From positions 1-46,858 of the forward strand of contig CASFYT010000014.1 in the NCBI GenBank assembly GCA_949299015.1: a DNA stretch of 46,858 nt. Direction: 5' to 3'. The position numbers were made by a program, and so were the translations under genes. Under the pieces are notes generated by a model. That model was not told the DNA's origin. It did no database searches and saw nothing but the letters and a program-made list of their open reading frames with translations. This stretch comes from an uncultured Bacillota bacterium. Lineage in GTDB: Bacteria > Bacillota_I > Bacilli_A > RFN20 > CAG-288. Shown here one piece after another: positions 2,428 to 17,381 of the stretch (position 1 is the stretch's first letter; the number at the start of each line of letters is the position of its first letter).

Positions 2428-3110
2428 AGAAGTGGAAGATCGCGACCATCATCGGCCTTTGCACGGCCAGCATGGCTGGTCTTGGTTTTTCCACATGGAT
2501 CTTGGGCGCGGAACCGGAGAGGATCGACATTCCGGTCTCGGCCGACGATGTCGTCGTTTCCTCCACCATCGATCTTCAGACAATCGGATTCGAGACGACA
2601 GCCAATTCCTTCGAAGCCTTCCGCTATGCCACGATCATCGACAATCCGGATTCGACATCGACGGAAGTGAAGGAATACGTCGGCGATGTCTATTTTTCCG
2701 TCGGCGGAACGATCGACACGTCGAAGGAACTTGAGTACAGGGACGATCTCTTCCTGAAAGTGACCTTCTCCTACGTCGGATATGTCAGCGGTGTCGCAAA
2801 CATCATCGAGGGATTGAGCGTCTATCCCGCGAATTACGAGCATTACGATTTTCCGGCCTATCGTTCGTCGGTCACGAATCAGGAAAACACTCTCGAAACG
2901 ACGGTCTTCTATTTCCCGGTCCAGAGCAAGCACAGCATGTCCCTTCGGGCCCTAGCTTCCTTGGATTCGACGTATCCGAGAGGCACGGACTATTCCGTTC
3001 CGCTCGTCTTCCGCTTCTCGGTCTCGAATGTGACAGACGCTCTGCTCGATTCCGAACAGGCCTTCCCGCAAATCCGGATCAGCTTCGGCCTTGCGACTTC
3101 CCGCGACTAA
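2424..3110 (+). CDS. Membrane-anchored or secreted protein with a GFSTW motif after the N-terminal helix
   Basis: This is a 228-aa protein. A short basic N-terminus (MKKWK) is followed by one hydrophobic helix of about 18 residues ending in GLGFSTWILG. An equivalent motif (GYSTFIAG, GYASWNIS) follows the N-terminal helix of two more proteins in this cluster. The arrangement recalls SipW-dependent or TasA-like signal peptides, where a G-x-x-W/F motif follows the hydrophobic core, but the match is only by eye. The rest is beta-rich with many Ser/Thr residues and no cysteine. The start overlaps the stop of the lipoprotein gene. It is likely exported; a role as a fibre or matrix subunit is speculation. 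Confidence 0.7.
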   Translation: MKKWKIATIIGLCTASMAGLGFSTWILGAEPERIDIPVSADDVVVSSTIDLQTIGFETTANSFEAFRYATIIDNPDSTSTEVKEYVGDVYFSVGGTIDTSKELEYRDDLFLKVTFSYVGYVSGVANIIEGLSVYPANYEHYDFPAYRSSVTNQENTLETTVFYFPVQSKHSMSLRALASLDSTYPRGTDYSVPLVFRFSVSNVTDALLDSEQAFPQIRISFGLATSRD

Positions 3111-3121
3111 GGAGGTGAACC

Positions 3122-5794
3122 ATGAAACAAGAAAAAGAAAAGAAGACAAAGAGAATTCCTCTCTGGAAGACATTGACGGTCGTCTTCCTTTTGCTTGGCA
3201 TCTTCGTCGCGGTCGGCTATTCCACTTTCATCGCCGGTCCGGTCGTCGATACTTCCTCGACCATCCAGACATCGGGAGAGACGGAAACGGACGATTCCGA
3301 TATGGTTCGCGTGGATTTCAAGTATCAGATTTGTGATGGAATGGAAGTCGTCACATACGATCCGGAACCCTTGGGCGATGTCAACGGAACATCGTATTCC
3401 GATATGACTAAAGAATACACTACAACAAATGAAAACAACTACAATACCTTTCAAAATTTGATGAACACTCTCACGGGATCTAGACCAGGAGATATTACTA
3501 CTATAGGCCAGTCGAAATTTGTCGGTGTCAATGATTGGAGCGATTATCTAATTGTTGTGGATGTTATCGATGGAATAACTTTTACAGAAGGAATATGTAG
3601 TGATACATATACGGGAAAATACAGAATTTGGAAGATTCATAATGATGAAACTTCCTACACTTATTCTTATTCAACGGACACCAAGTTTTCATTGGAAATT
3701 GCAAAAGGAAATCCAATTCCGAATAAAGTTCTTCTTGATTACATAGATAACAAAGAGAGCAACTATACTTTTGTCAATATGGTTTCGGGGGCCATGAATT
3801 TGGAAGGAGAAGAGGTTCCCGGAACAGAAGTGATTTCCTTTGATACTCCAATCAATTCTGACATGTCTGTTTATATTGTCATGAACAGCAACGTTGATCT
3901 GGCGGAATATAAGACGAATCTTTCCCAAACAATTTCTAACGCCACGGGAGAAATAACAATTAACGGCTTTTCTGCTGAATCACCTTACAATGTTACGGAA
4001 GATTTGTCTTATTTTGAATCTGACAAAACAGTAATGTTGACTCAAGAAACACATATTCATGAGGGGGTTACAGTTAATTTTGGGTTGAACGATGGCAATA
4101 TAACAAAAACGGCAACGGGAGATTTTAGCAATTATGAACCTGAGAACGAGAAGCATGAACTTCAATATAAAGTTGTTTTGCAAGACGATATGATTATTGA
4201 TGGCACTTTGAAAATCGGATCAAATTACGGTGTCAATACGGCTAATGCCAATCAAGGAATGATTGCGAATGAATATGTTTGTTTGGATCTCAACGGCCAT
4301 GACATTACCGTCAATGCGAATGGTGCCCTTTTATCTTATGGCCTGATAAAAGATTCGAAAGGAACAGGATCTATTCTTATCAATGGAGGAAAATTGCTGA
4401 CATTAGCTGTTGTAGAGGACTATCACGGGGGACGTGCAACACGCACTATGGTTAGTGATGAATACGTCTTCCCTTTTCAGGTGTATCTGTTGCCATATTT
4501 GCGATGCCATGCACGCATTTTGAAAAGTGAAGATGGAATTTGGGGACAATTTCTTGCGTTAGCTCACATTTGTGCTCAAACAACAGGAGGAACTACTTAC
4601 GCCGAACCTGTTTTGAATTTTATTGGCCCTTCCAATTCATCTGAACAATTTTTGTTCTCTTTAGAAGAGGAGAATGGCACGAACTCTTATGTTGATATTA
4701 TTGGGTATTCTCACTCTCAAATGGAAGAAGAAATGACAGCGGCAGATCGACAATATGTTTTATCAAGTAGAATGAAAATTGTTTTTGAAGGTGTCTCATG
4801 TGTCATGAATTCTTTGCAACTGGATGTTATAGAACAAATTGATACGGGAGACTATATTTTCCCAATTTCTGGATTTTTCGATATTGTTTTGAATTCCTCA
4901 AATATCGTCATATCACAAAGAATAAAATTCATGCCAGGATCGAGCTTTTTTGCAGATGAGAAAAGTATCATTGCTTTATCCTATACTAATGACTATAGTG
5001 CTCAGATTTCAGTTCTCGATAAAAGTTATAACTATTATGATCCTTCCTGTGGCTCTAAAATCACAAACGATAACGCCGCTGGTGGTGGCACTACGTTTGG
5101 TGAGAGGTATCTGAACTCAGATGCTTATTTGAAATATTTTTCTGGAAGCAGAACTAAAATTTTTGGCACAATAGCATTTAAAGCTGGAAACACAAGGAAT
5201 CCATATATTCTGGCCGGAAATATTGATTTTAATAAGATTGCTTATTATACAGATGATTATAACCAATGTGTTGAAATCGAATACACAGAGAATGAAAATC
5301 CATTTACTAAGATAGTAAATGCTAATCAAAATATTTCTATTCGCACATATAATTTTTCAACTATTTTAGGGCAAAATTATAATACTAGTTTGGTGACCGC
5401 TGATGTTTACCATAATAGAGGTTATGTTTTGCCACTTGTATCGCATGATAAATGCTATTACCAAAACGGAACGGAAACGGAAGGAATGGTTGGAACATTC
5501 GATTCTTTATCAGGAGAGATGATTTTTGATAATAATCCTTATTACTTTAATTGTGATGGTTCTTATCAAATGAACGACCAACGTTCCTGTTCGTTACGCC
5601 AATGTACGTATAATTCGGATAAACATGTTTTCATTGATGGAGAAAAGACTTATATCTATTTTGCAAGCATGTATTTTGAGTTTACTGAAACAGGTGATTT
5701 TGTGGGAACGGCCAACACCGAAAGACTAAACAACCAAACTAAATCGACGAATGTCCGTTTTGATTCAACCCTGAATCGTTGGCTGAGGGCCTGA
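3122..5794 (+). CDS. Large exported protein with G+C-rich N-terminus and A+T-rich beta-helix-like body
   Basis: This is an 890-aa protein whose start follows an AAGGAGG ribosome site. It has a basic N-terminus, one transmembrane helix and the motif VGYSTFIAG shared with its neighbours, so it is probably anchored outside the membrane. The centre includes CLDLNGHDITV and IKDSKGTGSILINGG, phrases typical of right-handed parallel beta-helix proteins. No catalytic residues were recognised. The base composition changes sharply. Codons up to about 3410 are G+C-rich like the rest of the window; from there to about 5700 third positions turn A/T-rich; the last few codons are mixed. This looks like a host-type export head joined to a foreign or diversifying passenger. 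The next start (5796) lies one base after the stop. Confidence 0.75.
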   Translation: MKQEKEKKTKRIPLWKTLTVVFLLLGIFVAVGYSTFIAGPVVDTSSTIQTSGETETDDSDMVRVDFKYQICDGMEVVTYDPEPLGDVNGTSYSDMTKEYTTTNENNYNTFQNLMNTLTGSRPGDITTIGQSKFVGVNDWSDYLIVVDVIDGITFTEGICSDTYTGKYRIWKIHNDETSYTYSYSTDTKFSLEIAKGNPIPNKVLLDYIDNKESNYTFVNMVSGAMNLEGEEVPGTEVISFDTPINSDMSVYIVMNSNVDLAEYKTNLSQTISNATGEITINGFSAESPYNVTEDLSYFESDKTVMLTQETHIHEGVTVNFGLNDGNITKTATGDFSNYEPENEKHELQYKVVLQDDMIIDGTLKIGSNYGVNTANANQGMIANEYVCLDLNGHDITVNANGALLSYGLIKDSKGTGSILINGGKLLTLAVVEDYHGGRATRTMVSDEYVFPFQVYLLPYLRCHARILKSEDGIWGQFLALAHICAQTTGGTTYAEPVLNFIGPSNSSEQFLFSLEEENGTNSYVDIIGYSHSQMEEEMTAADRQYVLSSRMKIVFEGVSCVMNSLQLDVIEQIDTGDYIFPISGFFDIVLNSSNIVISQRIKFMPGSSFFADEKSIIALSYTNDYSAQISVLDKSYNYYDPSCGSKITNDNAAGGGTTFGERYLNSDAYLKYFSGSRTKIFGTIAFKAGNTRNPYILAGNIDFNKIAYYTDDYNQCVEIEYTENENPFTKIVNANQNISIRTYNFSTILGQNYNTSLVTADVYHNRGYVLPLVSHDKCYYQNGTETEGMVGTFDSLSGEMIFDNNPYYFNCDGSYQMNDQRSCSLRQCTYNSDKHVFIDGEKTYIYFASMYFEFTETGDFVGTANTERLNNQTKSTNVRFDSTLNRWLRA

Positions 5795-5795
5795 G

Positions 5796-6578
5796 ATGCT
5801 TCCTTATATCACGATTGGTTCTCTTTCCGTTCCTTCCGGTGCCTTCTTCTGGATCATCGGCATCATCCTTTGCCTCATCTTTTATGTCGCTTCCCACAAG
5901 GTCTATGGATACAAATGGTATACGGCCCTGCTTCTCGGTGGCATGATGATCATCCTGGAGATCTTCGGGGCGAAGATCATGTATTATCTTCAGAATCCTT
6001 CGGCCTTCGGAGAACCGATTTCCTGGACGAGCGGTTACTCCTTGTATGGCGTCTTCTATTTCACGCCTCTCTTTGTCTTCTTGGTGACGCTTGTCATGAA
6101 GACGAGCTTCTATTCCGTGATGGACTTCCTTGCCCCAGGAATCATGATCGAATTGGCCCTCTATCGCATCGGATGCATGTGCGCCGGTTGTTGTTACGGA
6201 ATCGAGGTTGGTTGGGGAATCACCAATGGTGCAACCGATGGTCTCTTCCCGGTCCAACCGCTCGAAGCAGGATTGGATTTGATTGTCTTCGCGATCGTTT
6301 TCGCTTTGTATTGCAAGAAGAAACTGATCGTGGGCGAATCCTTCCTTTCGGTCTTCTTGGGCTACAGCATCGTCCGCTTTGGCGTCGAATTCCTGCGCTA
6401 TCGCGTCAATATCCTCGGACCGATGTCTCTGGGACATATCTTCGCCTTGGTTCAGATCGTTGTCTGTGGACTATGGATCCTTTACCTGCACTATCGCAAG
6501 AACAGGAAAGGACTAAGTCCAAGGAAGCAGAAACGAATCCTGCAGGAATTCGAGGACACTTTGGAAACGATCCATTAG
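5796..6578 (+). CDS. Lgt-family (prolipoprotein diacylglyceryl transferase-like) membrane protein
   Basis: This 260-aa polytopic protein with about seven hydrophobic segments matches Lgt in layout: SGYSLYG where Lgt has its GG-hS-hYGG region, APGIMIELALYRIGCMCAGCCYG where Lgt has the APxxxxxxxxGRIGNFxNGE signature, FPVQPLEA in place of HPxQLYEA, and a C-terminal IVRFGVEFLR. The signature Arg is kept, but the Asn and Glu positions around it are cysteines and the HP histidine is Phe. This CxGCCYG form belongs to a paralogous branch often annotated as Lgt. It may transfer lipid to a different substrate. It sits directly after the surface proteins (one base after their stop), which suggests a role in modifying or exporting them. 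Whether it is a genuine diacylglyceryl transferase is uncertain. Confidence 0.75.
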   Translation: MLPYITIGSLSVPSGAFFWIIGIILCLIFYVASHKVYGYKWYTALLLGGMMIILEIFGAKIMYYLQNPSAFGEPISWTSGYSLYGVFYFTPLFVFLVTLVMKTSFYSVMDFLAPGIMIELALYRIGCMCAGCCYGIEVGWGITNGATDGLFPVQPLEAGLDLIVFAIVFALYCKKKLIVGESFLSVFLGYSIVRFGVEFLRYRVNILGPMSLGHIFALVQIVVCGLWILYLHYRKNRKGLSPRKQKRILQEFEDTLETIH

Positions 6579-6631: not shown

Positions 6632-7311
6632 ATGAAGCTAAAGCATTGGTCTCGTCGGCATCGTCTGCTATTGGCCGGGGAGGGGGGCAACTCCTCGCTG
6701 TTTTAACGCTCTTTAGCATTGGCTATGCTTCTTGGAATATTTCTACTTCCGGTGGAATGCCCCTTGATGGGGTGATGGTTGGCGCTGACGAAGTCGAACA
6801 GGTCTCGAAGTATTGCTCTGTCGATGAATTCTCCTTTTCATCCTTTTGCGACAAAGGTTTCATCGTGGACGAAGCCATCGGAAACACGGCGGTCTTTTCG
6901 GCCTCTCTGAATTTGAATCTCACCTTGCTACAGGCGGAGGATTCCCCTTTCCCGTTTGTCGACGGTGCCTTGCCTTTGCGTCTTCGTCTGTCCTATAGCC
7001 GTGCCCTCTCTTCGGATGAAGCCGATGTCTTGAGCTTGGCCAATTCTTATTCGGCCTATTATTCGCATGCCAACACGACGCAGGACGTCTCTGGAAGCAC
7101 GATTTGGCAGGATTCTGTCCTGACGGCCTACATGAACCTTGCCGGTCTACCCGATGTTTCCGGTTCGACAGCGGAACGCTATTTCATCGTGAATGTGAAA
7201 TTTGCGTTAGCGTTTGAGGACTTTGCTTCCTTGTATCCGAAGCTGCAGGCCAATCCAAAGATTCCTTTCCAATTGGGAGTCGATTTCTCGGAGGTCGAGA
7301 GCAATGCGTAG
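6632..7311 (+). pseudogene. Surface protein with GYASW motif, split by a frameshift in a G tract
   Basis: An ATG at 6632 begins MKLKHWSRRHRLLLAGEG, a basic N-terminus like those of its neighbours, but the frame stops at TAA 6703-6705. The hydrophobic helix and the body (QLLAVLTLFSIGYASWNIS and on to TAG 7309-7311) continue in the -1 frame. The switch falls at a run of six G (6682-6687) after an earlier GGGG. One extra G would fuse both parts into a protein of about 226 aa with the same helix-plus-GYxSW plan as the genes at 2424 and 3122. In the current sequence only a TTG at 6646, without a ribosome site, could open the second frame. Possible explanations are a sequencing error, slippage-based phase variation or programmed frameshifting. 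Confidence 0.6.
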
Positions 7312-7516
7312 GAAAAGAATCGGGTATGCTCTTTTCCTCCTTCTGCCCGCCTTGTTCCTTACCGCTTTTTCGCGTTGGATTGTCGCCCTCGACGCCAATA
7401 TTAGTGAACCCTTCTTTTGGGTTCGGAAGGGATTCGGCTTCGGTTCTGCCTCGTTTCTTTGGCCTTCGATCATTCCATCTTCCGCCGGCAGGGAAACTGC
7501 CGGAGAAAGGAGGTGA
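7304..7516 (+). CDS. Small membrane protein running into the duplicated module
   Basis: The ATG at 7304 overlaps the end of the preceding frame. The product is about 70 aa, starting MRRKRIGYALFLLLPALFL, with one hydrophobic helix. From about codon 39 the frame lies inside the duplicated module that begins at 7419, and it stops within the ribosome site of the 32-aa peptide gene. The C-terminal half therefore looks like chance read-through into inserted DNA, so the original gene was probably longer or different. No family was recognised. Confidence 0.35.
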   Translation: MRRKRIGYALFLLLPALFLTAFSRWIVALDANISEPFFWVRKGFGFGSASFLWPSIIPSSAGRETAGERR

Positions 7517-7519
7517 GCG

Positions 7520-7618
7520 ATGGGAACTTGTGATGTTCTCGTCCTTCTGCTTTTCTACCTCATCCTCAAATACATCGACAAGAAGGCAGAAAAAAAGGAC
7601 CGTAGCGATGACGACTGA
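7520..7618 (+). CDS. 32-aa single-helix peptide, candidate type I toxin (copy 1)
   Basis: The reading frame encodes MGTCDVLVLLLFYLIL, a predicted membrane helix, followed by a charged tail KYIDKKAEKKDRSDDD. A strong ribosome site AGGAGG (7508-7513) lies 6 nt before the ATG, just after a stable hairpin (7485-7503). The size, single helix and charged C-terminus fit type I toxins such as Fst, TxpA or BsrG in Bacillota, though the sequence matches none that I recognise. The copy at 9312 shares 22 of 32 residues, and a predicted antisense RNA overlaps the 3' end. Toxicity is inference. Confidence 0.65.
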   Translation: MGTCDVLVLLLFYLILKYIDKKAEKKDRSDDD

Positions 7619-7666
7619 CGAGCCAAGTTAGTCCATCGCGAGGCAGAGCCTCGGCCCGGTCCCTTC
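7590..7666 (-). ncRNA. Predicted antisense RNA (type I antitoxin-like), copy 1
   Basis: On the minus strand a TATAAT (7678-7673) would start a transcript near 7666 that covers the 3' end of the peptide gene and ends at seven U (opposite A7590-7596). It can fold as a three-way junction. P1 pairs GGACCG with CGGTCC (7657-7662 with 7597-7602) directly before the U-run. P2 pairs GCGATG and GACT with AGTC and CATCGC (7605-7616 with 7630-7639), with a two-base bulge. P3 is GAGGC/GCCTC with a 3-nt loop (7640-7652). The same structure is kept in copy 2. No known RNA family was recognised. Confidence 0.55.
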
Positions 7667-7672
7667 CTTGGT

Positions 7673-7700
7673 ATTATAGGCCCAGTCGAGGCGAAATCAA
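7673..7700 (-). promoter_or_regulatory. Promoter of the antisense RNA, copy 1
   Basis: On the minus strand: TTGATT (7700-7695), 16 bases, TATAAT (7678-7673). The -10 lies in the shared module; the -35 lies just outside it. Confidence 0.5.
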
Positions 7701-8352
7701 ATGTGCGAAGGCGTTGTTGGGATTTTTCCATTGACGAAATGGAGAGAAAAGAAAGACTTTGGAGGGAGGAGGCAATTAAAAAGAGTAATTTTTTACACTT
7801 CGTTTTCTTTTCCGAAAATGTCGTCAAGGTTGGTTTCGCCATGATCGATTGCACGTCCAATTTTCATGCGTGGCGACAAGAATTTTAGATGATGTTTCAT
7901 CGATTATTTCTGGGAATGTTAAAGCGATAATCGCTTCTTCGTCGTAAAATTACTGTGTTTTTTCTACCATTGAAATTGACATCGCTTGAAATAAAGAAAT
8001 GACTGCAGATGTCAAATTGGAATGGCCAATCGATTCTTCCTGCATCAAGGAGACATCACCGGATTTTTTGGCTGTTTCTCATCCCAGCGTTTCCGCTCTG
8101 ATAATGGTTGTAATCGGAAACAAGTCCATGTTCTCAATGCATGCGAGGAAACGAGTATGGTAAACTTATTCTCATACACAAGATGATGACAAAAGCGAAA
8201 ATGACTCAGGAGATTGCCCGGAAACGAGAGACACCACGGAATATAGTCGCTCTTTATATGAAAATGACGTTTCGTGTTTTCTCTTCTTCTTTTTCTAATA
8301 TTTATTCGATGATGTTGATATCGGCACCTTCTGATAGGAACTTATCTCTGAT
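7701..8352. other. A+T-rich intergenic stretch without a supported gene
   Basis: This stretch between the first module copy and the membrane protein gene is clearly richer in A+T than the rest of the window. Short open frames occur on both strands, but none has a ribosome site, plausible composition or family resemblance. It may contain decayed genes. Confidence 0.5.
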
Positions 8353-8961
8353 ATGACCTTACCTGAAATTTTGGATTTGGCAATGGTTTTGCTTTGGGAC
8401 GTGGTATATATCCTCATTATTGTCTTTGGTATCAAAAAAAGAATCTGTCTCATGCCTTTTCTTCCAATTTCCCTCAACCTCTCATGGGAATTGGCACGTT
8501 GTCTTGATCTCGATTTTCAAAATGTTTCTCAATCCATAGGGCTTCTCTCTTGGCTGATTTTGGATCTGGTGATCTATGCCATTCATCTAAGATTCGGTGG
8601 TGTGATGATGACAAAAAAACGGAAGGGATTTCTCCTTCTTTCCATTTCTGTTCCTTTGGTTTGTTGTGCAATTGTGCTTGCACTTTCCTGGTTTGTCCCG
8701 TCTTTTTTTCTTTACTTTTCATTTTTCATCAATCTTCTGATGTCCTGTCTCTTTCTTCCCTGCCTTTTAATGAAACGAACCCATCAAAAAGAATGGGCCA
8801 TCATCGCTCTCTTTCGGTTTCTCGGAACGCTTTCTGCAACGATTGTCTATGGAATCTTTTTTTCGGACTGGATTGCCTTGGCTGTCGGTGTCTTGATTGC
8901 GGCAATCGATTTCATCACTTTTGCTCTTGCCTTTCTCCTTCCGAATCCGAAGGAGGATTGA
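8353..8961 (+). CDS. Polytopic membrane protein, tentatively PaxB/Pyr4-type terpene-cyclase-like
   Basis: This 202-aa protein consists mostly of six to seven hydrophobic helices. Two features recall the transmembrane terpene-cyclase-like family (PaxB/Pyr4): an N-x-x-W-E motif at the start of the second helix region (Asn42, Trp45, Glu46) and an acidic residue in a helix followed by an RFG end (Asp71 ... HLRFG). In fungal members a Glu and an Asp are catalytic; bacterial homologues are mostly uncharacterised. The resemblance is by eye only, and no prenyl-transfer gene lies nearby. The gene is A+T-rich compared with the chromosome, stands alone between the two module copies and lacks a clear ribosome site, which points to acquired DNA. 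It could be another small membrane family. Confidence 0.55.
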   Translation: MTLPEILDLAMVLLWDVVYILIIVFGIKKRICLMPFLPISLNLSWELARCLDLDFQNVSQSIGLLSWLILDLVIYAIHLRFGGVMMTKKRKGFLLLSISVPLVCCAIVLALSWFVPSFFLYFSFFINLLMSCLFLPCLLMKRTHQKEWAIIALFRFLGTLSATIVYGIFFSDWIALAVGVLIAAIDFITFALAFLLPNPKED

Positions 8962-9311
8962 TCCTGAATTGATAAAGGCAAGGAGAATCCCTCTTTTGTA
9001 ATTGAAATTATGAAATAGTCTCATTTATTCACGGCATAAAGGAAACGTACGAGCTTCCTCTTGCAACTATGGATATTCTGCCTGTTTCTCCCGTTAGCTA
9101 GGATTCAACTCTCTGAAAAAAGGATGAAGGCAACGGATTAACGCATTTCTATACGTAAGAGCCTTTTCAGGACAATAAATGGTGAGCTCTGTCTTTGTCA
9201 TGGAGACGGGGTTCGGAAGGGCCTCGGCTTCGGTTCTGCCTCGTTTCTTTGCTTTTCATTCTTTTCCTCTTCCGCCGGCAGGGTTTCTCTGCCGGAGAAA
9301 GGAGGTGAGTC

Positions 9312-9410
9312 ATGGGAACGGTCGACGTTCTCGGACTTCTGATCTTCTACCTCATCCTCCGGTTTGTCCGTGAGGAGACAGAAAAAAAGGACCGTAGCGA
9401 TGACGACTGA
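9312..9410 (+). CDS. 32-aa single-helix peptide, candidate type I toxin (copy 2)
   Basis: The frame encodes MGTVDVLGLLIFYLIL followed by the charged tail RFVREETEKKDRSDDD. AGGAGG precedes the ATG at the same distance as in copy 1. Differences from copy 1 cluster in the helix and first tail residues and keep hydrophobicity or charge spacing, while the last nine residues are identical. The identical end is the part covered by the predicted antisense RNA, so its conservation may be enforced at RNA level. Confidence 0.65.
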   Translation: MGTVDVLGLLIFYLILRFVREETEKKDRSDDD

Positions 9411-9457
9411 CGAGCCAAGTTAGTCCATCGCGAGGCAGAGCCTCGGCCGGTCCCTTC
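9382..9457 (-). ncRNA. Predicted antisense RNA (type I antitoxin-like), copy 2
   Basis: Same architecture as copy 1 on the minus strand. The TATAAT at 9469-9464 would start it near 9457, and a U-run opposite A9382-9388 follows the CGGTCC side of the closing stem (9389-9394). The P2 and P3 stems are identical to copy 1. The RNA would overlap the 3' end of the peptide mRNA including its stop codon. Confidence 0.55.
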
Positions 9458-9463
9458 CTTGGT

Positions 9464-9491
9464 ATTATACGTCGGCGCCGTCCCTTTCGAA
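9464..9491 (-). promoter_or_regulatory. Promoter of the antisense RNA, copy 2
   Basis: On the minus strand: TTCGAA (9491-9486), 16 bases, TATAAT (9469-9464). The -10 is shared with copy 1; the -35 is weaker and lies in unrelated flanking sequence. Confidence 0.4.
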
Positions 9492-9691: not shown

Positions 9692-11683
9692 TTATTTCTT
9701 CTTTGGCTGGGGGATGTACTTGGTCCTATAGAGGAGGAGGGACATCGAATGGAGGACGCACAGGGCCATGACGCCGGTGTCGGAGAGAGTCCCCAGGATC
9801 ATGGCGTAGCTTCCTCCGTAGCCGAGGGCGACCAGGACCATGATCAGGACCTTGACGAAGATGGCGAAGCTGACGCCGACGATGACGTTGAGCATCGTCC
9901 GGCGCGCGAGCCTCCTTCCTTCGGCGACCTTCCTGAGGTTGTCGTCCATGATGACGATGTCGCTGGCTTCGATGGCGGCATCGCTTCCGAGTCCTCCCAT
10001 GCTGATTCCGACGTCGCTGGCCAGGAGGGAAGGAGAGTCGTTGATGCCGTCTCCGACGAAGCCGACCTTCTTCCTCTTCATCTCTTCCTTCAGCGCCTGG
10101 AGCTTCTCGTCCGGAAGGAGGCCGGCACGATAGCCATCCAGGCCCACTTCCTTGGCCACGGCTTGGGCAATCCGGTCGTCGTCTCCCGAGAGCATTAAAG
10201 TCTTCTCCACCTTTTCCTTCTTCAGGTCCTGGAGGGCTTCCTTCGCCCCTTCCTTGATCTCGTCGGCGACGATGAAGTCCTGAATCTTCTCACCTCCCTC
10301 CTTGGCAAGGGCGAGGACCTTGTAGGGCGTCTTCGCCTCTTCGTAGTCCTGGACGCCGTTCTGAAGCAGGAAGGCCTTGCTTCCGAGGACATAGGTTTCT
10401 CCTTCGATCGTGCCGCGGATTCCTCCGCCGGGGACGTTCTGGAAGTCCTGGACGGGAAGCGTCCTTCCGTCGTAGGCGTCTGTGATCGCCTTTCCCAGCG
10501 GGTGGGTCGACTTCGCCTCCAAGGAGGCGGCGATGGCGAGAATCGATGGTTCGACCTCATTCTTCAGGACGAAGTTTCCGCGTGTCAAAGTTCCGGTCTT
10601 GTCGAAGAAGATGGTATTGGCTCTTGCGATGTTTTCCAAAGGGAGAGAGCCTTTGATCAAGACGCCAATTCTACTGGCGACACCGATTCCGGCAAAGAAG
10701 GAGATGGGAACGGAGATGACCAGGGCGCAGGGGCAGGAGATGAGAAGGATGGAAAGGGAGCGGTAGAGCCAAGCCTGGCCGCCGGAGGCGCCCTCCCAGA
10801 CGAAGCCGGAAAGGCCGTATCCGAGAAGGAAGACGAAGAGGGCGATCAAAACGACGATGGGCGTATACACCTTGCTGAAGCGGGTGATGAACTTTTCGCT
10901 CTTGGCCTTCTTTTCCTGCTCTTGCTGGACGAGGGTCAGGATTCGGGAGAGCGTGGAGTCCTGATAAGGCTTCTCGGTCCTGATGGAAAGGACGCAGGAA
11001 AGGTTCACCGATCCGGAATAGATCTTCTCCCCTTCCTGGATCTCGCGGGGAAGGGATTCGCCGTTGATGGAGGACATGTCCAGGGAGGATCGGCCCGAGA
11101 CGACGATGCCGTCGATGCTGACCTTTTCCCCGGGACGGACTTCCAGGAGGGAGCCGACTTCGACTTCCTCAGGATTCTTCTCGACGATGCTCCCGTCCTT
11201 CGTCACGACGTGGGCGTGGAGGGGAATGTCGTTGACCAGGCCCTGGATCGACTTCTTCGACCTTTCGGTCGCGTAGTCCTCCAGCATCTCCCCGACGATG
11301 TTGAAGAGGACGACGAGGATCGACTCCAGGAACTCTCCGATGGCGTAGGCGCCCAGGGTCGCCAGGAACATCAGGGTGAACTCGTTGATGTAGTTTCCTT
11401 CCCGAATCTCCCGGATCATGTTCTTAATTAGGATAAAGGAGAGGAAGGCATAGTCGATCGTGTAGATCAGGAATGCCGGGAAGGAAAGGGAGGAGAGGAA
11501 GGCAGGATCGGAGAAGAACGACCATTCAATCTCTTGATAGCGGGGGTCGTCGACCTTGTTCAGGACGAGCGCGAGGATCAACAGGAGGACGCCGACGCCG
11601 AGGAAGACGAAGTGAAGGATCTTTTCCTTCCTTTCTTCCTTCTCGTCCAAAGGACATCCGTCGTGACAGGCTTTGCAGGACAT
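9692..11683 (-). CDS. Heavy-metal P1B-type ATPase (Zn/Cd/Pb type)
   Basis: This 663-aa membrane pump hydrolyses ATP to export a soft divalent metal. It has the SCPCALVIS transmembrane metal site (Cys317-Pro-Cys319), the phosphorylated Asp361 in DKTGTLT, the HPLGKAI motif, and GDGINDSPSL followed by MGGLGSDAAIEASD, the pattern of the Zn/Cd/Pb group. There is no N-terminal ferredoxin-like HMA domain. Instead the protein starts MSCKACHDGCPLDEKEE, a short CxxCxxxC tail that may bind metal. The start at 11683 was chosen because GGAGG lies 7 nt upstream; an in-frame extension to 11791 would run through the promoter. It is transcribed divergently from nifJ. Metal specificity is inferred from motifs only. 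Confidence 0.9.
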   Translation of the reverse strand: MSCKACHDGCPLDEKEERKEKILHFVFLGVGVLLLILALVLNKVDDPRYQEIEWSFFSDPAFLSSLSFPAFLIYTIDYAFLSFILIKNMIREIREGNYINEFTLMFLATLGAYAIGEFLESILVVLFNIVGEMLEDYATERSKKSIQGLVNDIPLHAHVVTKDGSIVEKNPEEVEVGSLLEVRPGEKVSIDGIVVSGRSSLDMSSINGESLPREIQEGEKIYSGSVNLSCVLSIRTEKPYQDSTLSRILTLVQQEQEKKAKSEKFITRFSKVYTPIVVLIALFVFLLGYGLSGFVWEGASGGQAWLYRSLSILLISCPCALVISVPISFFAGIGVASRIGVLIKGSLPLENIARANTIFFDKTGTLTRGNFVLKNEVEPSILAIAASLEAKSTHPLGKAITDAYDGRTLPVQDFQNVPGGGIRGTIEGETYVLGSKAFLLQNGVQDYEEAKTPYKVLALAKEGGEKIQDFIVADEIKEGAKEALQDLKKEKVEKTLMLSGDDDRIAQAVAKEVGLDGYRAGLLPDEKLQALKEEMKRKKVGFVGDGINDSPSLLASDVGISMGGLGSDAAIEASDIVIMDDNLRKVAEGRRLARRTMLNVIVGVSFAIFVKVLIMVLVALGYGGSYAMILGTLSDTGVMALCVLHSMSLLLYRTKYIPQPKKK

Positions 11684-11707
11684 GGGTGGGCCTCCTAATA
11701 TGAAGTT

Positions 11708-11744
11708 ACGTTCATATGATATAACGTTCATAAAACGTTGGCAA
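11708..11744 (-). promoter_or_regulatory. Promoter and probable metal-sensor operator of the ATPase gene
   Basis: On the minus strand: TTGCCA (11744-11739), 17 bases, TATCAT (11721-11716). Two direct copies of ACGTTCATA (plus-strand 11708-11716 and 11724-11732) lie within and just after the core promoter. A+T-rich repeats over the promoter are typical operators for ArsR/SmtB/CadC-type metal sensors. No such regulator gene is in the window. Confidence 0.6.
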
Positions 11745-11819
11745 GCATTTTCGGCAGGAAAAGGAGCGATATAGTTATCATATGTTAACAAAATACGACG
11801 TTTTTCCTGCCTTTTTGGG

Positions 11820-11849
11820 TTTCTACTTTGTTTTTGTTTGTTCTATAAT
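11820..11849 (+). promoter_or_regulatory. nifJ promoter
   Basis: TATAAT at 11844-11849 with a weak TTTCTA at 11820-11825 (18-base spacer). The leader of about 30 nt carries GGAGG (11876-11880) unusually close to the ATG at 11885. Confidence 0.55.
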
Positions 11850-11884
11850 AAATTGCTTGAACCAGCAGAATCATTGGAGGATGT

Positions 11885-14800
11885 ATGGAAAAAGAGAAGT
11901 TCACATTCAAGTCCGTCGATGGCAACACCGCTGCTGCCCTCGGCTCCTACAAGTTCACCGAAGTCGCTGCCATCTATCCGATCACTCCTTCGAGCCCGAT
12001 GGCGGAAAACGTCGACGTCTATGCCTCCCAGGGCATGAAGAACGTCTTTGGCGATGTTGTGAAGGTCGTTGAGATGCAGTCCGAAGCCGGCGCCTCGGGT
12101 GCCGTCCACGGCGCGCTCCAGGGCGGTAGCCTTGCGACGACCTATACGGCCTCTCAGGGTCTTCTCCTGATGATCCCGAACATCTACAAGTGGGTCGGCG
12201 AAGAGCTTCCGGCCGTCCTGCACGTTGCCGCCCGCTCCCTCGCTTCCCGTTCCCTCTCCATCTTCGGCGATCACGGCGACATCTATGCCGTCCGTCAGAC
12301 GGGCGCTGCCATGATCTGCTCCCACTCCGTCCAGGAAGTCGCGGACCTCGCTCCTCTGTCGCATCTGATTGCGATCGAGTCGGCTTCCCCGGTCATCCAC
12401 TTCTTCGACGGCTTCCGCACCTCGCACGAAATCCAGAACGTCGAGTTCGTCAACGACGATTTCTGGAAGTCTCTCCTCAACACGGAGAAGGTCGACGAAT
12501 TCAAGAAGAGGGCGCTCAATCCGCACGGCCATGCGGTCACCCGCGGCGGTGCCGAGAACGACGACATTACCTTCCAGGGACGTGAAGCCCAGAACCTCCA
12601 CGAGGAGCACATCGTCGACGTCGCCTGCAAGTATTTCCAGAAGCTGACCGATGCGACGGGCCGTGCCTATGCGCCGTTTGTCTATTACGGCGATCCCGAG
12701 GCGACGAAGGTCATCATCGCCATGGGTTCGGTCACGGAGACCTGCCTCGAGGTCATCGACGACCTGATGAAGAAGGGCGAGAAGGTCGGCTTGGTCAAGG
12801 TCCATCTCTATCGTCCGTTCTCTGTCCGTCACCTGATGGCGACGATCCCCACCACGGTCAAGAAGATCGCGGTCCTCGATCGCACCAAGGAGCCGGGAAG
12901 CAACGGCGAGCCTCTCTATCTCGACGTTGTCGCTGCCCTCAAGCAGGGCGGCAGGACCGACATCGCGGTCCTCGGCGGCCGTTACGGCATCTCCTCCAAG
13001 GATACGCAGCCGAACCAGATCAAGGCGGTCTTCGACTTCCTTGACGCGAAGAAGACCTGGACGGGATTCACGATCGGCATCGACGACGATGTCACGCATC
13101 TCTCGCTTCCGGTCGACGAGACCTACACCGTTCCGCACGACTACACCTCCTGCCTCTTCTACGGCCTTGGATCGGACGGCACCGTCTCGGCCAACAAGTC
13201 CTCGGTCAAGATCATCGGCGACGAGACGCACCAGTATGCCCAGGCCTACTTCGCCTACGATTCCCGCAAGGCCGGCGGCGTCACCCGCTCGCACCTCCGC
13301 TTCGGCAAGACGCCGATCCACTCGACCTACTACGTCGAGAACGCGGATTTCGTCTCCTGTTCCCTGGATTCCTACATCTTCAAGTTCGACATGCTTCGCA
13401 ACCTGAAGGATGGCGGAACCTTCCTTCTCAATACGGACATGACCGACGAGCAGCTCTTCAACGCGATGCCCAACCGCATGAAGAAGCAGCTTGCCGACAA
13501 GCATGCCAAGTTCTACGTCATCGACGCGAACAAGATCGCTCTTGCCATCGGCATGGGCCGTCATACCAACACGATCCTCCAGGCTTCCTTCTTCTATCTC
13601 AACCAGCAGATCATGCCTTATGCCGAGGCCAACGAATGGATGAAGAAGTTCGCGGCCAAGACCTACGGCAAGAAGGGCCAGGACGTCGTCGAGCTCAACT
13701 ACAAGGCCATCGACCAGGGAACGGAAGGACTGCGCGAGGTCACCGTCGATCCCAGCTGGTCCAACCTCCCGGTCAGCAAGACGGTCAAGCTCACCGGTGA
13801 CGACTACTGGGACAGCTACGTCGCCTTGATCGGCAACCTCGAAGGAAACGACATCCCGGTCTCGACCTTCCTCAAGTGGGAGCTCGAGGACGGCACGATG
13901 GAGCCCAACGTCACCCTGCGTGAGGATCGTTCCATCGCCGACCGCGTCCCGGTCTGGGAGAAGGAAAACTGCATCCAGTGCGCCCAGTGCGCCTTCGTCT
14001 GCCCGCATGCGACGATCCGTCCCTTCCTCCTGAACGAGGAAGAGCTCGAGAAGCTTCCGGAAGACGAGAGGGCCGATGTCCTGGCGGCGATGGGCGGACC
14101 CAACGTCAAGGGACTCTTCTGGCGCATCCAGGTCTCTCCGATGAACTGCGTCGGATGCGGACTCTGCGTCAACCAGTGCCCGGGCAAGAGAGTCGCCAAG
14201 AAGGACGAGAACGGCAACGAGGTCAAGGACGAGAACGGAAAGACCGTCTTCGAGCAGAAGAAGGCCCTCAAGCTCGTCGAGGCCAAGAGCCAGTTCCACC
14301 ACGAGGAGGCGGCCAAGATCCTCTACACGCAGATCGAGCCTCGCGAAGGACTCTTCCCGGCCGGAACGGTCAAGGAAGTCGCCCTCAAGAAGCCCTATCA
14401 GGAAGTCTCGGGTGCCTGCGCCGGCTGCGGCGAGACGCCTTACTATCGTCTGGCTTCCCAGCTCTTCGGACAGGATATGCTCATCGCCAACGCGACGGGC
14501 TGCTCCTCCATCTACAACGGTTCCACGCCGATGACGCCGTTTGTCTGCGACAAGAACGGCAACGGTCCGGCCTGGGCGAACTCCCTCTTCGAGGACAACG
14601 CCGAGTACGGCTATGGAATGCGCATCGCGACCGATCACAAGCTCACCAAGATCGTCTCCATCATCAACGGTGCCCTGGACAAGGTCGAGCCCGAGCTCAA
14701 GGACATCCTTGTCGACTACGTCAACAACATCAAGAACAAGAAGCACGTCCGTGAGATCCTTCCGAAGCTCCTCAATCTCGTCCAGACCTCGGCCAACAGC

Positions 14801-15496
14801 GACATCAAGGCCCTGCTTCCGATGAAGAACGACCTCCTCGACAAGTCCATCTGGATCGTCGGCGGCGACGGCTGGGCCTACGATATCGGCTACGGCGGAC
14901 TGGACCACGTCATCGCGACGGACGACGACGTCAACATCCTCGTCCTCGATACCGAAGTCTACTCCAACACCGGCGGCCAGGCCTCCAAGTCCTCGCAGAC
15001 CGGACAGATCGCCAAGTTCGCGGCTTCCGGAAAGAAGACGGCCAAGAAGAACCTCGGCCTCATCGCCATGGCCTATGACCATGTCTATGTCGCCCAGATC
15101 GCTCTCGGCAGCAACCCGGCCCAGGCCATCAAGGCCTTGACCGAGGCGGAGAGCTACAACGGACCTTCCCTCGTCATCTGCTATGCGCCTTGCCAGGAGC
15201 ACGGCATCAAGGGCGGCCTCGGCAATTCCATGAAGCAGGAGAAGATGGCCGTCGACTGCGGCTACTTCCTCACCTACACCTACGATCCTCGCCTGAGGGA
15301 GCAGGGCAAGTCCCCGCTGGTCATGTCCTGCAAGCCGGACTTCTCCAAGTTCCGCGACTTCGTCATGACCCAGACCCGCTACAGCCAGCTCTTCCGTGTC
15401 AATCCGGATCATGCGGAAGAACTCCTCACCAAGAGCGAGAAGCTCGCCGAGCAGCGCTACCACGACATCCTCCGCTACGGCGGACTCGAGAAGTAA
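11885..15496 (+). CDS. nifJ: Pyruvate:ferredoxin (flavodoxin) oxidoreductase
   Basis: This single-chain enzyme of 1203 aa has the usual length for homodimeric PFOR. It converts pyruvate and CoA to acetyl-CoA and CO2 and reduces ferredoxin, the central step of anaerobic pyruvate use. The N-terminal domain has the YPITPSSPM pyruvate/CoA signature. Two 4Fe-4S clusters are bound by CIQCAQCAFVCPHA (from Cys696) and CVGCGLCVNQCPG (from Cys755). The proximal cluster uses Cys845, Cys848, Cys873 and Cys1103 (GACAGCGET, NATGCSS, APCQEHG). Thiamine diphosphate binding is seen in GGDGWAYDIGYGG followed by YSNTGGQASKSS. The gene is monocistronic between its own promoter and terminator. Confidence 0.97.
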   Translation: MEKEKFTFKSVDGNTAAALGSYKFTEVAAIYPITPSSPMAENVDVYASQGMKNVFGDVVKVVEMQSEAGASGAVHGALQGGSLATTYTASQGLLLMIPNIYKWVGEELPAVLHVAARSLASRSLSIFGDHGDIYAVRQTGAAMICSHSVQEVADLAPLSHLIAIESASPVIHFFDGFRTSHEIQNVEFVNDDFWKSLLNTEKVDEFKKRALNPHGHAVTRGGAENDDITFQGREAQNLHEEHIVDVACKYFQKLTDATGRAYAPFVYYGDPEATKVIIAMGSVTETCLEVIDDLMKKGEKVGLVKVHLYRPFSVRHLMATIPTTVKKIAVLDRTKEPGSNGEPLYLDVVAALKQGGRTDIAVLGGRYGISSKDTQPNQIKAVFDFLDAKKTWTGFTIGIDDDVTHLSLPVDETYTVPHDYTSCLFYGLGSDGTVSANKSSVKIIGDETHQYAQAYFAYDSRKAGGVTRSHLRFGKTPIHSTYYVENADFVSCSLDSYIFKFDMLRNLKDGGTFLLNTDMTDEQLFNAMPNRMKKQLADKHAKFYVIDANKIALAIGMGRHTNTILQASFFYLNQQIMPYAEANEWMKKFAAKTYGKKGQDVVELNYKAIDQGTEGLREVTVDPSWSNLPVSKTVKLTGDDYWDSYVALIGNLEGNDIPVSTFLKWELEDGTMEPNVTLREDRSIADRVPVWEKENCIQCAQCAFVCPHATIRPFLLNEEELEKLPEDERADVLAAMGGPNVKGLFWRIQVSPMNCVGCGLCVNQCPGKRVAKKDENGNEVKDENGKTVFEQKKALKLVEAKSQFHHEEAAKILYTQIEPREGLFPAGTVKEVALKKPYQEVSGACAGCGETPYYRLASQLFGQDMLIANATGCSSIYNGSTPMTPFVCDKNGNGPAWANSLFEDNAEYGYGMRIATDHKLTKIVSIINGALDKVEPELKDILVDYVNNIKNKKHVREILPKLLNLVQTSANSDIKALLPMKNDLLDKSIWIVGGDGWAYDIGYGGLDHVIATDDDVNILVLDTEVYSNTGGQASKSSQTGQIAKFAASGKKTAKKNLGLIAMAYDHVYVAQIALGSNPAQAIKALTEAESYNGPSLVICYAPCQEHGIKGGLGNSMKQEKMAVDCGYFLTYTYDPRLREQGKSPLVMSCKPDFSKFRDFVMTQTRYSQLFRVNPDHAEELLTKSEKLAEQRYHDILRYGGLEK

Positions 15497-15514
15497 GTCG
15501 ACCTTTGGAAGACG

Positions 15515-15545
15515 AAGGGGCTGTTTCGACAGCCCCTTTTCCTTT
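15515..15545 (+). terminator. nifJ terminator
   Basis: A 10-bp stem AAGGGGCTGT/ACAGCCCCTT with a TTCG tetraloop, followed by TTCCTTT. Confidence 0.85.
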
Positions 15546-15574
15546 CGCCGGATGGAAAAGGGAGCCTTTTTGCC

Positions 15575-15580
15575 TATAAT
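15575..15580 (+). promoter_or_regulatory. -10 box of the sirtuin operon
   Basis: TATAAT, with no convincing -35. An in-frame ATG at 15588 lies 7 nt downstream, where a transcript would begin. A second ATG at 15609 has a purine-rich ribosome site. This box would drive the operon that runs to 25523. Confidence 0.55.
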
Positions 15581-15608
15581 AAAACGGATGGATTTCGGGA
15601 GGGGAGGA

Positions 15609-16343
15609 ATGGCGCAGCTGGACGAGGATCGGACGTTTCTTCAACAGGAGATCGAGAAGAGCGCAAACGTCGTCTTTTTCGGTGGGGCGGGCGTCTCGAC
15701 GGAGTCGGGAATCCCGGATTTCCGCAGCACGGACGGCCTCTACCACCAGAAATACCGCTTCGATCCGGAAGTCATCCTCTCCCACGCTTTCTACGAGAGC
15801 CACAAGGAAGAGTTCTTCCGCTTCTACCGCGAGAAGATGCTCCTTCTCGACGCCCGTCCCAACGCCTGCCACCGGGCTCTCGCTGCCCTGGAGAAGAGGG
15901 GCAAGGTCAAGGCCGTCGTCACCCAGAACATCGACGGCCTGCACCAGAAGGCGGGAAGCCGGAACGTCGTGGAGCTCCATGGCTCCATCCATCGCAACTT
16001 CTGCGAGGAATGCGGACGAAGATACGATGGATCGTTCGTCCGGGAGACGGAGGAGCTCGTCCCCCGTTGCCCCCGCTGCGGCGGCGTCATCAAGCCGGAC
16101 GTCGTCCTCTATGGGGAATGCCTGGACGAACGGGTGATGACAAGGGCGGCGATCGCCATCTCCGAGGCCGACCTGCTTATCGTGGCCGGGACTTCCCTCG
16201 CCGTCTATCCGGCCGCTTCCTTCCTGAACGTCTTTCAGGGAAGGCTTCTGATTTTGATTGACAAGGATGAGAAGAAGACGGATCATAGGGCGGACGTCGT
16301 CCTGCACGACAAAGTCGCCGAACTCTTCGGAGGAATCCAATGA
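15609..16343 (+). CDS. cobB: Sir2-family NAD-dependent protein deacylase
   Basis: This 244-aa sirtuin removes acyl groups from lysines using NAD+, releasing nicotinamide and O-acyl-ADP-ribose. Motifs in order are GGAGVSTESGIPDFRS (residues 25-40), TQNIDGLHQKAG, the catalytic His124 in ELHGS, a zinc site of Cys132, Cys135, Cys154 and Cys157, IKPDVVLYGE, and GTSLAVYPAA. It is a compact class U/CobB-like enzyme without extra domains. The start was placed at 15609 because GGGAGGGGAGG precedes it; the in-frame ATG at 15588 would add seven residues on a leaderless mRNA. Its stop overlaps the next start (ATGA), so it leads a tightly coupled operon. Confidence 0.92.
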   Translation: MAQLDEDRTFLQQEIEKSANVVFFGGAGVSTESGIPDFRSTDGLYHQKYRFDPEVILSHAFYESHKEEFFRFYREKMLLLDARPNACHRALAALEKRGKVKAVVTQNIDGLHQKAGSRNVVELHGSIHRNFCEECGRRYDGSFVRETEELVPRCPRCGGVIKPDVVLYGECLDERVMTRAAIAISEADLLIVAGTSLAVYPAASFLNVFQGRLLILIDKDEKKTDHRADVVLHDKVAELFGGIQ

Positions 16344-16678
16344 CCCTGCTGGAGCAGATGGAATGCCCGACCTCGACCTGCTATTGCGGAAGCGCCTGCT
16401 TCTGCTCCCTCCTTCCCTTCGTCAACCTTCTGGAAGAGGAAGAGCGGGAAGAGGCAAAGGAACGGCTGCTTTCGATGGTCGTCCTGGACGGGACCTACTT
16501 CCTTTCGAAGGGAGAGGAAAGGGCGCGGCTTCTGCCCCGCTGCCGGGAAGGCTATCTCTGGGCCATCGCCCTGACGGAGAGGCTTCGCAAGCGGGCGCGG
16601 AGCGCTGCGGCGAAGCGACAGCTTCTCTCCGACGAGCGATTCCTGCGCCATCTTCTTTCGTTGGTGGAGGAAGGATGA
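16340..16678 (+). CDS. Small helical protein with an N-terminal cysteine cluster
   Basis: This 112-aa protein matches no family I recognise. Five cysteines are packed near the start (CPTSTCYCGSACFC, residues 9-22), which suggests metal binding. The remainder is predicted helical and rich in Glu, Arg and Leu. It overlaps the sirtuin gene by ATGA and the next gene by ATGA, so it belongs to the same operon. A link to the sirtuin is guesswork. Confidence 0.6.
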   Translation: MTLLEQMECPTSTCYCGSACFCSLLPFVNLLEEEEREEAKERLLSMVVLDGTYFLSKGEERARLLPRCREGYLWAIALTERLRKRARSAAAKRQLLSDERFLRHLLSLVEEG

Positions 16679-17040
16679 AGGACCGGTACCTGGAAGCCGT
16701 TTCCGCGACGGGGAGGGAGGAGACGGACCTGATTCTCCTCTCCCTGCTTCCTGGGCTCGGCATGCTGAACAAGCTCCTGACGCGCAAGGAGAGGGGGAAG
16801 AGGCCCTTTTCGCCCTCGTTCGGCTTTTCGGCGCGGATCCAGGAGATCCAGGAGCTCACCCAGCTTCTTCTCTCCGAAAGGGGGAGGGAAGGGAAGGAAC
16901 TCTTGGAAAGGCTGGCGGAGACCTGCGACAGGGCCGTGGAAGAGATTCGGACACCGTCCCTTCAAGAAGACATCCGCTGGCTGGGAGAAGGCTTCGAAAA
17001 CGCCATCCTCGCCATCGAGGAAGAGAGGAGAACACGCTGA
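16675..17040 (+). CDS. Unrecognised helical protein
   Basis: This 121-aa protein starts at the ATG overlapping the previous stop (16675-16678), preceded by GGAGGAAGG. The same frame is open much further upstream, but that part lies over the sirtuin and the cysteine-cluster gene and is rejected. The product is amphipathic and helical, rich in Leu, Glu and Arg, with no signal peptide or motif. Its stop overlaps the next start (TGATG). Confidence 0.6.
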   Translation: MKDRYLEAVSATGREETDLILLSLLPGLGMLNKLLTRKERGKRPFSPSFGFSARIQEIQELTQLLLSERGREGKELLERLAETCDRAVEEIRTPSLQEDIRWLGEGFENAILAIEEERRTR

Positions 17041-17381
17041 TGAAACACTATGAGGAATGGAAGGATCGGACCATCCTGATCGACCTTCAAAACCGCTTTG
17101 CGACCTGCTATCAGAATCCGGATGGATCGATTTTCTATGTCGAGCCTCAATTCTATACCTATCTTCAAGGATATAAGATGCTTCGTCCGGAAAGCTATTC
17201 GAAACTGCTTTGCAAGATGGATGAGATCGTGAAGAAGAATCGCAAGGTCGTCTTCGTCGGGCAGGAGGACAATCCCCTGGTGGAGACGGAGGGGGCCATC
17301 TTCCTGACGGCGATGGACGTCGCCGACTTTTGCCAGGTCCTGGTCGAGGACAAGAGCCGCGGGTCGGACTACGGAGACTAG
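17040..17381 (+). CDS. Unrecognised small cytoplasmic protein
   Basis: This 113-aa protein starts MKHYEEWKDRTILIDLQNRF and has a mixed alpha/beta appearance, with hydrophobic strands such as KVVFVGQE and a conserved-looking aromatic stretch IFYVEPQFYTYLQGY. It has no signal peptide or catalytic motif. It overlaps the previous gene by one base and ends one base before the M6-like protease start, which fits co-expression in the sirtuin operon. Confidence 0.6.
   Translation: MKHYEEWKDRTILIDLQNRFATCYQNPDGSIFYVEPQFYTYLQGYKMLRPESYSKLLCKMDEIVKKNRKVVFVGQEDNPLVETEGAIFLTAMDVADFCQVLVEDKSRGSDYGD

Follow-up and report, generated by a model that had tools for sequence, protein, structure and literature searches.

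Here, we describe a chromosomal, multi-copy module that is probably a type I toxin–antitoxin-like pair of a new sequence family, two copies of which lie in the window, that is, the whole 46,858-nucleotide stretch of DNA that was analysed. Each copy combines a short open reading frame (ORF) and its ribosome-binding site (RBS) with a convergent antisense gene that has its own promoter and terminator, and with RNA structures that covary between copies from three species. The best explanation of this anatomy is a genus-restricted module that would work like txpA/RatA and bsrG/SR4 of Bacillus subtilis while being unrelated to them in sequence. As far as they can be computed from sequence, all hallmarks of a Gram-positive type I pair are present: a short, hydrophobic peptide whose tail is charged, a strong RBS in structured RNA, a convergent antisense gene and multiple copies. 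They support, by analogy, the toxin/antisense reading of a first-pass annotation of this DNA; that the peptide is toxic and the RNA neutralises it we infer from anatomy and from likeness to known systems. The features of the two copies are as follows.

7396–7404, plus strand: presumed weak −10 of the peptide mRNA, copy 1 (CAATATTAG, from the alignments; putative promoter function)
9173–9181, plus strand: presumed weak −10 of the peptide mRNA, copy 2 (CAATAAATG; putative function)
7406–7424, plus strand: 5′ mRNA hairpin, copy 1 (GAACCC-loop-GGGTTC)
9184–9214, plus strand: 5′ mRNA hairpin, copy 2, with a covarying stem
7425–7453, plus strand: 5′ arm of the long-distance helix, copy 1, resembling the 5′ end of the antisense RNA
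9215–9243, plus strand: 5′ arm of the long-distance helix, copy 2
7485–7503, plus strand: hairpin just upstream of the RBS, copy 1 (CCGGCAG/CTGCCGG)
9275–9295, plus strand: hairpin upstream of the RBS, copy 2, with covariation
7506–7516, plus strand: RBS, copy 1 (AAAGGAGGTGA), its core conserved in all copies
9298–9308, plus strand: RBS, copy 2 (AAAGGAGGTGA)
7520–7618, plus strand: presumed toxin ORF, copy 1, a 32-aa single-helix peptide (MGTCDVLVLLLFYLILKYIDKKAEKKDRSDDD)
9312–9410, plus strand: presumed toxin ORF, copy 2, a 32-aa peptide (MGTVDVLGLLIFYLILRFVREETEKKDRSDDD)
7639–7667, plus strand: 3′ arm of the long-distance helix, copy 1, also the target of the 5′ half of the antisense RNA
9431–9458, plus strand: 3′ arm of the long-distance helix, copy 2
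7590–7669, minus strand: presumed antitoxin RNA, copy 1, ~80 nt, a three-way junction ending in T7
9382–9460, minus strand: presumed antitoxin RNA, copy 2, a three-way junction ending in T7
7673–7700, minus strand: antisense promoter, copy 1 (TTGATT-16-TATAAT)
9464–9469, minus strand: antisense −10, copy 2 (TATAAT; weak −35, TTTCGA)

The two direct copies that had been reported at first are borne out: 7419–7678 and 9209–9469 align in three collinear repeat blocks at a spacing of ~1790 nt. Identity is 85% at the ORF start, 87% in the 5′ leader and 97% over the 76 nt of the antisense block, which had rightly been called nearly identical. The units as a whole span about 7396–7678 and 9173–9469, and their true start lies about 25–35 nt further upstream than had been given. 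The first inventory had missed both the long 5′–3′ complementarity of the mRNA and a third copy in the same genome, on another contig (G000:C13:20864-21130, 92%). Among 59 relatives searched, further copies occur in two congeners, G010 and G006; in these 2 of 14 congeners lie four more full copies besides partial ones, which brings the full copies to seven, spread over three species of a single genus (3 of its 15 species). Because five of the full copies lie outside the window, the module is more than a chance arrangement. G010 has one full copy (L004), a decayed antisense block (L010) in which the closing helix of the antisense RNA is lost, and a leader-only remnant (L008). G006 carries L005, L007 and L009 as full copies, together with a solo antisense gene (L011, G006:C27:13110-13184) that keeps promoter, full three-way junction and terminator intact without a peptide gene. 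Full, antisense-only and leader-only copies thereby form a natural series of module decay. An integrase-core transposase gene (L066:9215-10483) is found about 1 kb from L011.

Type I toxins are shorter than 60 aa and have a transmembrane part and a charged C-terminus, with examples of 34 aa in Clostridioides difficile (PMC6563280). The single-helix peptide with charged tail that had been proposed is encoded in both window copies. Across the seven copies the peptides are 32–37 aa long, have a mean hydropathy of 2.2–2.4 over residues 2–16, in keeping with one membrane helix as in type I toxins, and end in a tail of K, R, D and E residues, again as in these toxins. They share M[GD]xxDVLxL[LF]xxYLIL[KR], in which the D-V-L and Y-L-I-L core is invariant, followed by a lysine-rich tail and, in most, an acidic end. 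The AGGAGG that had been noted is part of a longer site, the one listed above. The reading frame, whose conservation in relatives had been proposed as a check, is kept in all seven full, homologous copies, and third codon positions vary most. In codons 1–20, Sd/S is 0.31 against an Nd/N of 0.12 (three closest pairs pooled; Fisher p = 0.003), a dN/dS of about 0.4; by this comparison the codons are under purifying selection, in agreement with the earlier remark that helix changes are conservative. Part of the tail sequence is set by the antisense terminator, since the minus-strand T-run is at the same time the lysine-coding A-run. In L009, a frameshift alters the tail, which is not conserved there, and the constant part of the peptide therefore appears to be the core.

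The antisense gene of copy 1 (TATAAT at 7673–7678) covers the last peptide codons and the part 3′ of them, and has by sequence a promoter and a terminator of its own. The minus-strand TATAAT, the three-way junction and the seven U described in the first-pass annotation are all there in both window copies. The junction is the predicted fold in 8/8 antisense copies, with z between −3.1 and −3.8 in each. In the alignment, 99.4% of the cells in its three helices are paired and both partners are changed in four pairs; none of 500 shuffles and none of the slid controls reaches the covariation score. The −10 is invariant in all eight copies. As to the rest of the promoter, the −35 is good in copy 1 (TTGATT, 16 bp) and weak in copy 2; the four G006 copies all have TTGAAA with dissimilar spacers of 17–18 bp, and the boxes in G000 and G010 are weaker than this. 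The apical loop AACU(U)GG, of the YUNR form familiar from antisense loops, is kept in 7 of 8 copies and reads AACUUGC in L005. A covariance model of the antisense block (R1), a check that had also been suggested, picks up every full copy and, in addition, one solo copy, and scores the eight intact RNAs at 88–99 bits. The duplex of antisense RNA and mRNA is predicted to extend over ~80 nt with a gain of −78 to −95 kcal/mol.

On the plus strand, the presumed −10 block (CAATA or AAATA) stands just upstream of the leader hairpin in 7/7 copies. The upstream stem that had been said to persist while its loop differs is real: the stem covaries between copies (GAACCC/GGGTTC, GAAGCC/GGCTTC, GAAGCA/TGCTTC) around a variable loop. 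In other copies the hairpin before the RBS reads CCGACAG/CTGTCGG, again a compensatory change. Of the features not noted before, the strongest is a covarying long-distance helix, provided that the transcript extends far enough. This 24-bp pairing of the 5′ and 3′ regions, of the kind that closes the aapA mRNA, is in the minimum-energy fold of all seven peptide transcripts. In the alignment, 95.8% of its cells pair and three pairs differ in both partners; its covariation score, though drawn from only seven related sequences, is above all 500 shuffles. Taken alone, the two arms form a duplex of −38 to −50 kcal/mol, and none of 500 shuffles per copy is as strong. For the plus-strand mRNA we found no terminator, and the match of its promoter to the consensus is poor, so that we can only infer the mRNA 3′ end that the helix needs. 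The predicted accessibility of the RBS is low with and without this 3′ end, and the RBS is mostly paired in both cases. The folds thus gave no support to a masking of the RBS by the 5′–3′ helix itself, and an aapA-like activation by 3′ trimming finds none in them either.

How does the module compare with known systems? In Fst/RNAII, from the par locus of pAD1, the genes are convergent, the antisense RNA overlaps the 3′ end and repeats lie near both 5′ ends. The module also has convergent genes, a 3′-end antisense RNA and repeats, but its repeats are inverted rather than direct and therefore pair within the mRNA, and the peptide has no match to the Fst_toxin profile (PF13955, Fst/Ldr). txpA/RatA and bsrG/SR4 are closer in design: convergent antisense RNAs pair with the 3′ end of the mRNA, the peptide is a small single helix with a charged tail, and the RBS of txpA and bsrG is hidden in local structure (PMC6562991). 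However, there is no sequence relation to them, with no match to the Hol_Tox profile (PF16935, TxpA/BsrG) at E up to 10 and no member of that family in the 23 family genomes searched; the peptide of the module is shorter (32 aa), its antisense RNA is a compact three-way junction, and its mRNA carries the 24-bp closing helix. The modules of C. difficile (CD0956.2-RCd10 and others) resemble it in having convergent, overlapping genes in several copies and toxins as short as 34 aa whose C-terminal region is charged (PMC6563280). In contrast to these, the present module lies in no recognisable prophage as far as seen, its different peptide has an acidic end (RSDDD) after the lysines, and there is no sequence similarity in the libraries searched. 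aapA/IsoA of Helicobacter pylori is likewise chromosomal and multi-copy, and a long-distance 5′–3′ helix closes its full-length mRNA (PMC6733600). Here, though, the 5′ arm nearly repeats the 5′ end of the antitoxin itself and pairs with the site that the antitoxin targets, and the long helix is not predicted to mask the RBS directly.

The first-pass annotation had not recognised the sequence, and this holds, as no relative was found in any library or collection searched. Rfam gave nothing credible for the whole window at the gathering threshold or for copy 1 at a lenient E-value. Searches of Pfam, NCBIfam, PHROGs and PADLOC at E up to 10 returned chance hits only (RIFIN, for example), a PDB profile search returned no more than a weak YajC match (E 0.16), and the viral contigs, plasmids and phages scanned held no relative. 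In 279 order genomes the peptide profile (A3) separates members, at E below 1e-15, from noise at E above 0.004; nine hits inspected at E 0.005–0.05 are interrupted by stops, lie within other coding sequence or are without an RBS. Nothing credible emerged from 395 class genomes, where the hits at E about 0.001 carry stops. R1 brought up no further credible member in 23 family and 279 order genomes; its hits in G003 and G013 were a stretch unrelated to the module and an ordinary terminator. When about 85,000 GTDB species genomes were scanned with a pattern, all records came from G006 and G010 except for three chance hits (L023, L028, L030), which have no ORF or antisense architecture.

The module probably works as follows. 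The plus-strand transcript would begin just before the 5′ hairpin and run to about 7667 (copy 1) or 9458 (copy 2). Little peptide would be made from it, because the full-length mRNA would be held closed by the 24-bp 5′–3′ helix and RBS and start codon would lie inside local hairpins. The convergent antisense RNA, made from the better promoter, would pair over ~80 nt with the last ~10 codons and the 3′ untranslated part, probably starting at the conserved AACU(U)GG loop, and RNase III would cut the duplex, as for txpA/RatA (PMC6562991). If antisense synthesis fell or a copy were lost, the more stable mRNA would be translated and the single-helix peptide would enter the membrane and halt growth. 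The antisense RNAs of the three genomic copies are nearly identical and should therefore cross-protect; the solo antisense copy of G006 could neutralise the module in trans. As the 5′ arm is similar to the antisense RNA over the latter's first 30 nt, it can pair with the 3′ site that the antitoxin targets. We tentatively suggest, as a possibility short of even chances, that the leader contains an inverted-duplicate imitation of these 30 nt, which apparently arose from the promoter and 5′ end of the antitoxin gene. By folding onto the 3′ site it would compete with the antitoxin, keep the mRNA silent and protect it from antitoxin binding until the 3′ end decays.

Frame conservation, an antisense RNA and a structured leader would fit any tightly repressed peptide, including a small membrane peptide that is no toxin, such as a transporter regulator or a stress peptide under cis-antisense control. 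We consider this unlikely: several copies per genome, partial remnants and occurrence in 3 of 15 species fit an addiction or selfish module better, and the neighbours of non-orthologous copies differ, so that there is no constant partner gene. It is less probable still that the module is a MITE-like, non-autonomous mobile element with the imperfect 29-nt inverted repeats as its termini and the ORF and RNA as incidental content. The repeats (7425–7453 and 7639–7667) are indeed near-terminal, and copies are dispersed, some partial, with copy 1 at a truncated gene end. Yet the genome holds three copies only, 82–92% alike, which is neither the high copy number nor the burst of identical copies of such elements, and no target duplication is evident by eye. 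Moreover, the ORF is under purifying selection behind a strong RBS, antisense promoter, terminator and helices are kept, the helices covary, and conserved −10 blocks lie outside the repeats.

The intact L011, with its promoter, three-way junction and terminator but no peptide gene, could also be taken as the typical form of a trans-acting small RNA, the peptide gene being secondary. We give this very little weight, no more than the mobile-element reading, as a conserved peptide ORF underlies 7 of 8 intact RNA genes, L010, the other solo copy, is without its closing helix, and loss of a toxin would be expected to leave an orphan antitoxin behind.

Type I modules easily escape searches, as their peptides and RNAs are dissimilar between groups, and the confinement of known cases to few phyla has been attributed to search bias (PMC12390103). 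The present candidate family has good support from sequence comparison and comes from an uncultured Firmicutes lineage with small genomes; it offers a covariance model and a defined peptide core, DVLxLLxxYLIL[KR], and may provide a testable case of a toxin mRNA leader that imitates its own antitoxin.

The modules sit in a hypervariable gap between two blocks syntenic with G010:C4 (window 2950–6460 and 9692–17158). The matching gap in G010 holds one full copy and two remnants, its contents being otherwise different, which suggests that the site is prone to recombination and that modules are kept or exchanged there. Copy 1 starts just past the first ~30 codons of a gene with a 983-aa homologue in G006. 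This secreted-protein gene stub (7304–7516, MRRKRIGYALFLLLPALFLTAFSRWIVALD...) has an N-terminus homologous to that of this 983-aa protein, which has a Hint domain (L066:12957-15908), and the homology ends at 7389, just before copy 1. Between the copies, a low-GC island (8353–8961, about 39–41% GC against 49–60% around it) encodes a 202-aa membrane protein that matches the Pyr4-like transmembrane terpene cyclases of Pfam (PF25129, E 2.6e-12). Further upstream, a large secreted-protein gene without a Pfam match (3122–5794) directly precedes a gene of the prolipoprotein diacylglyceryl transferase (LGT) family at 5796–6578.
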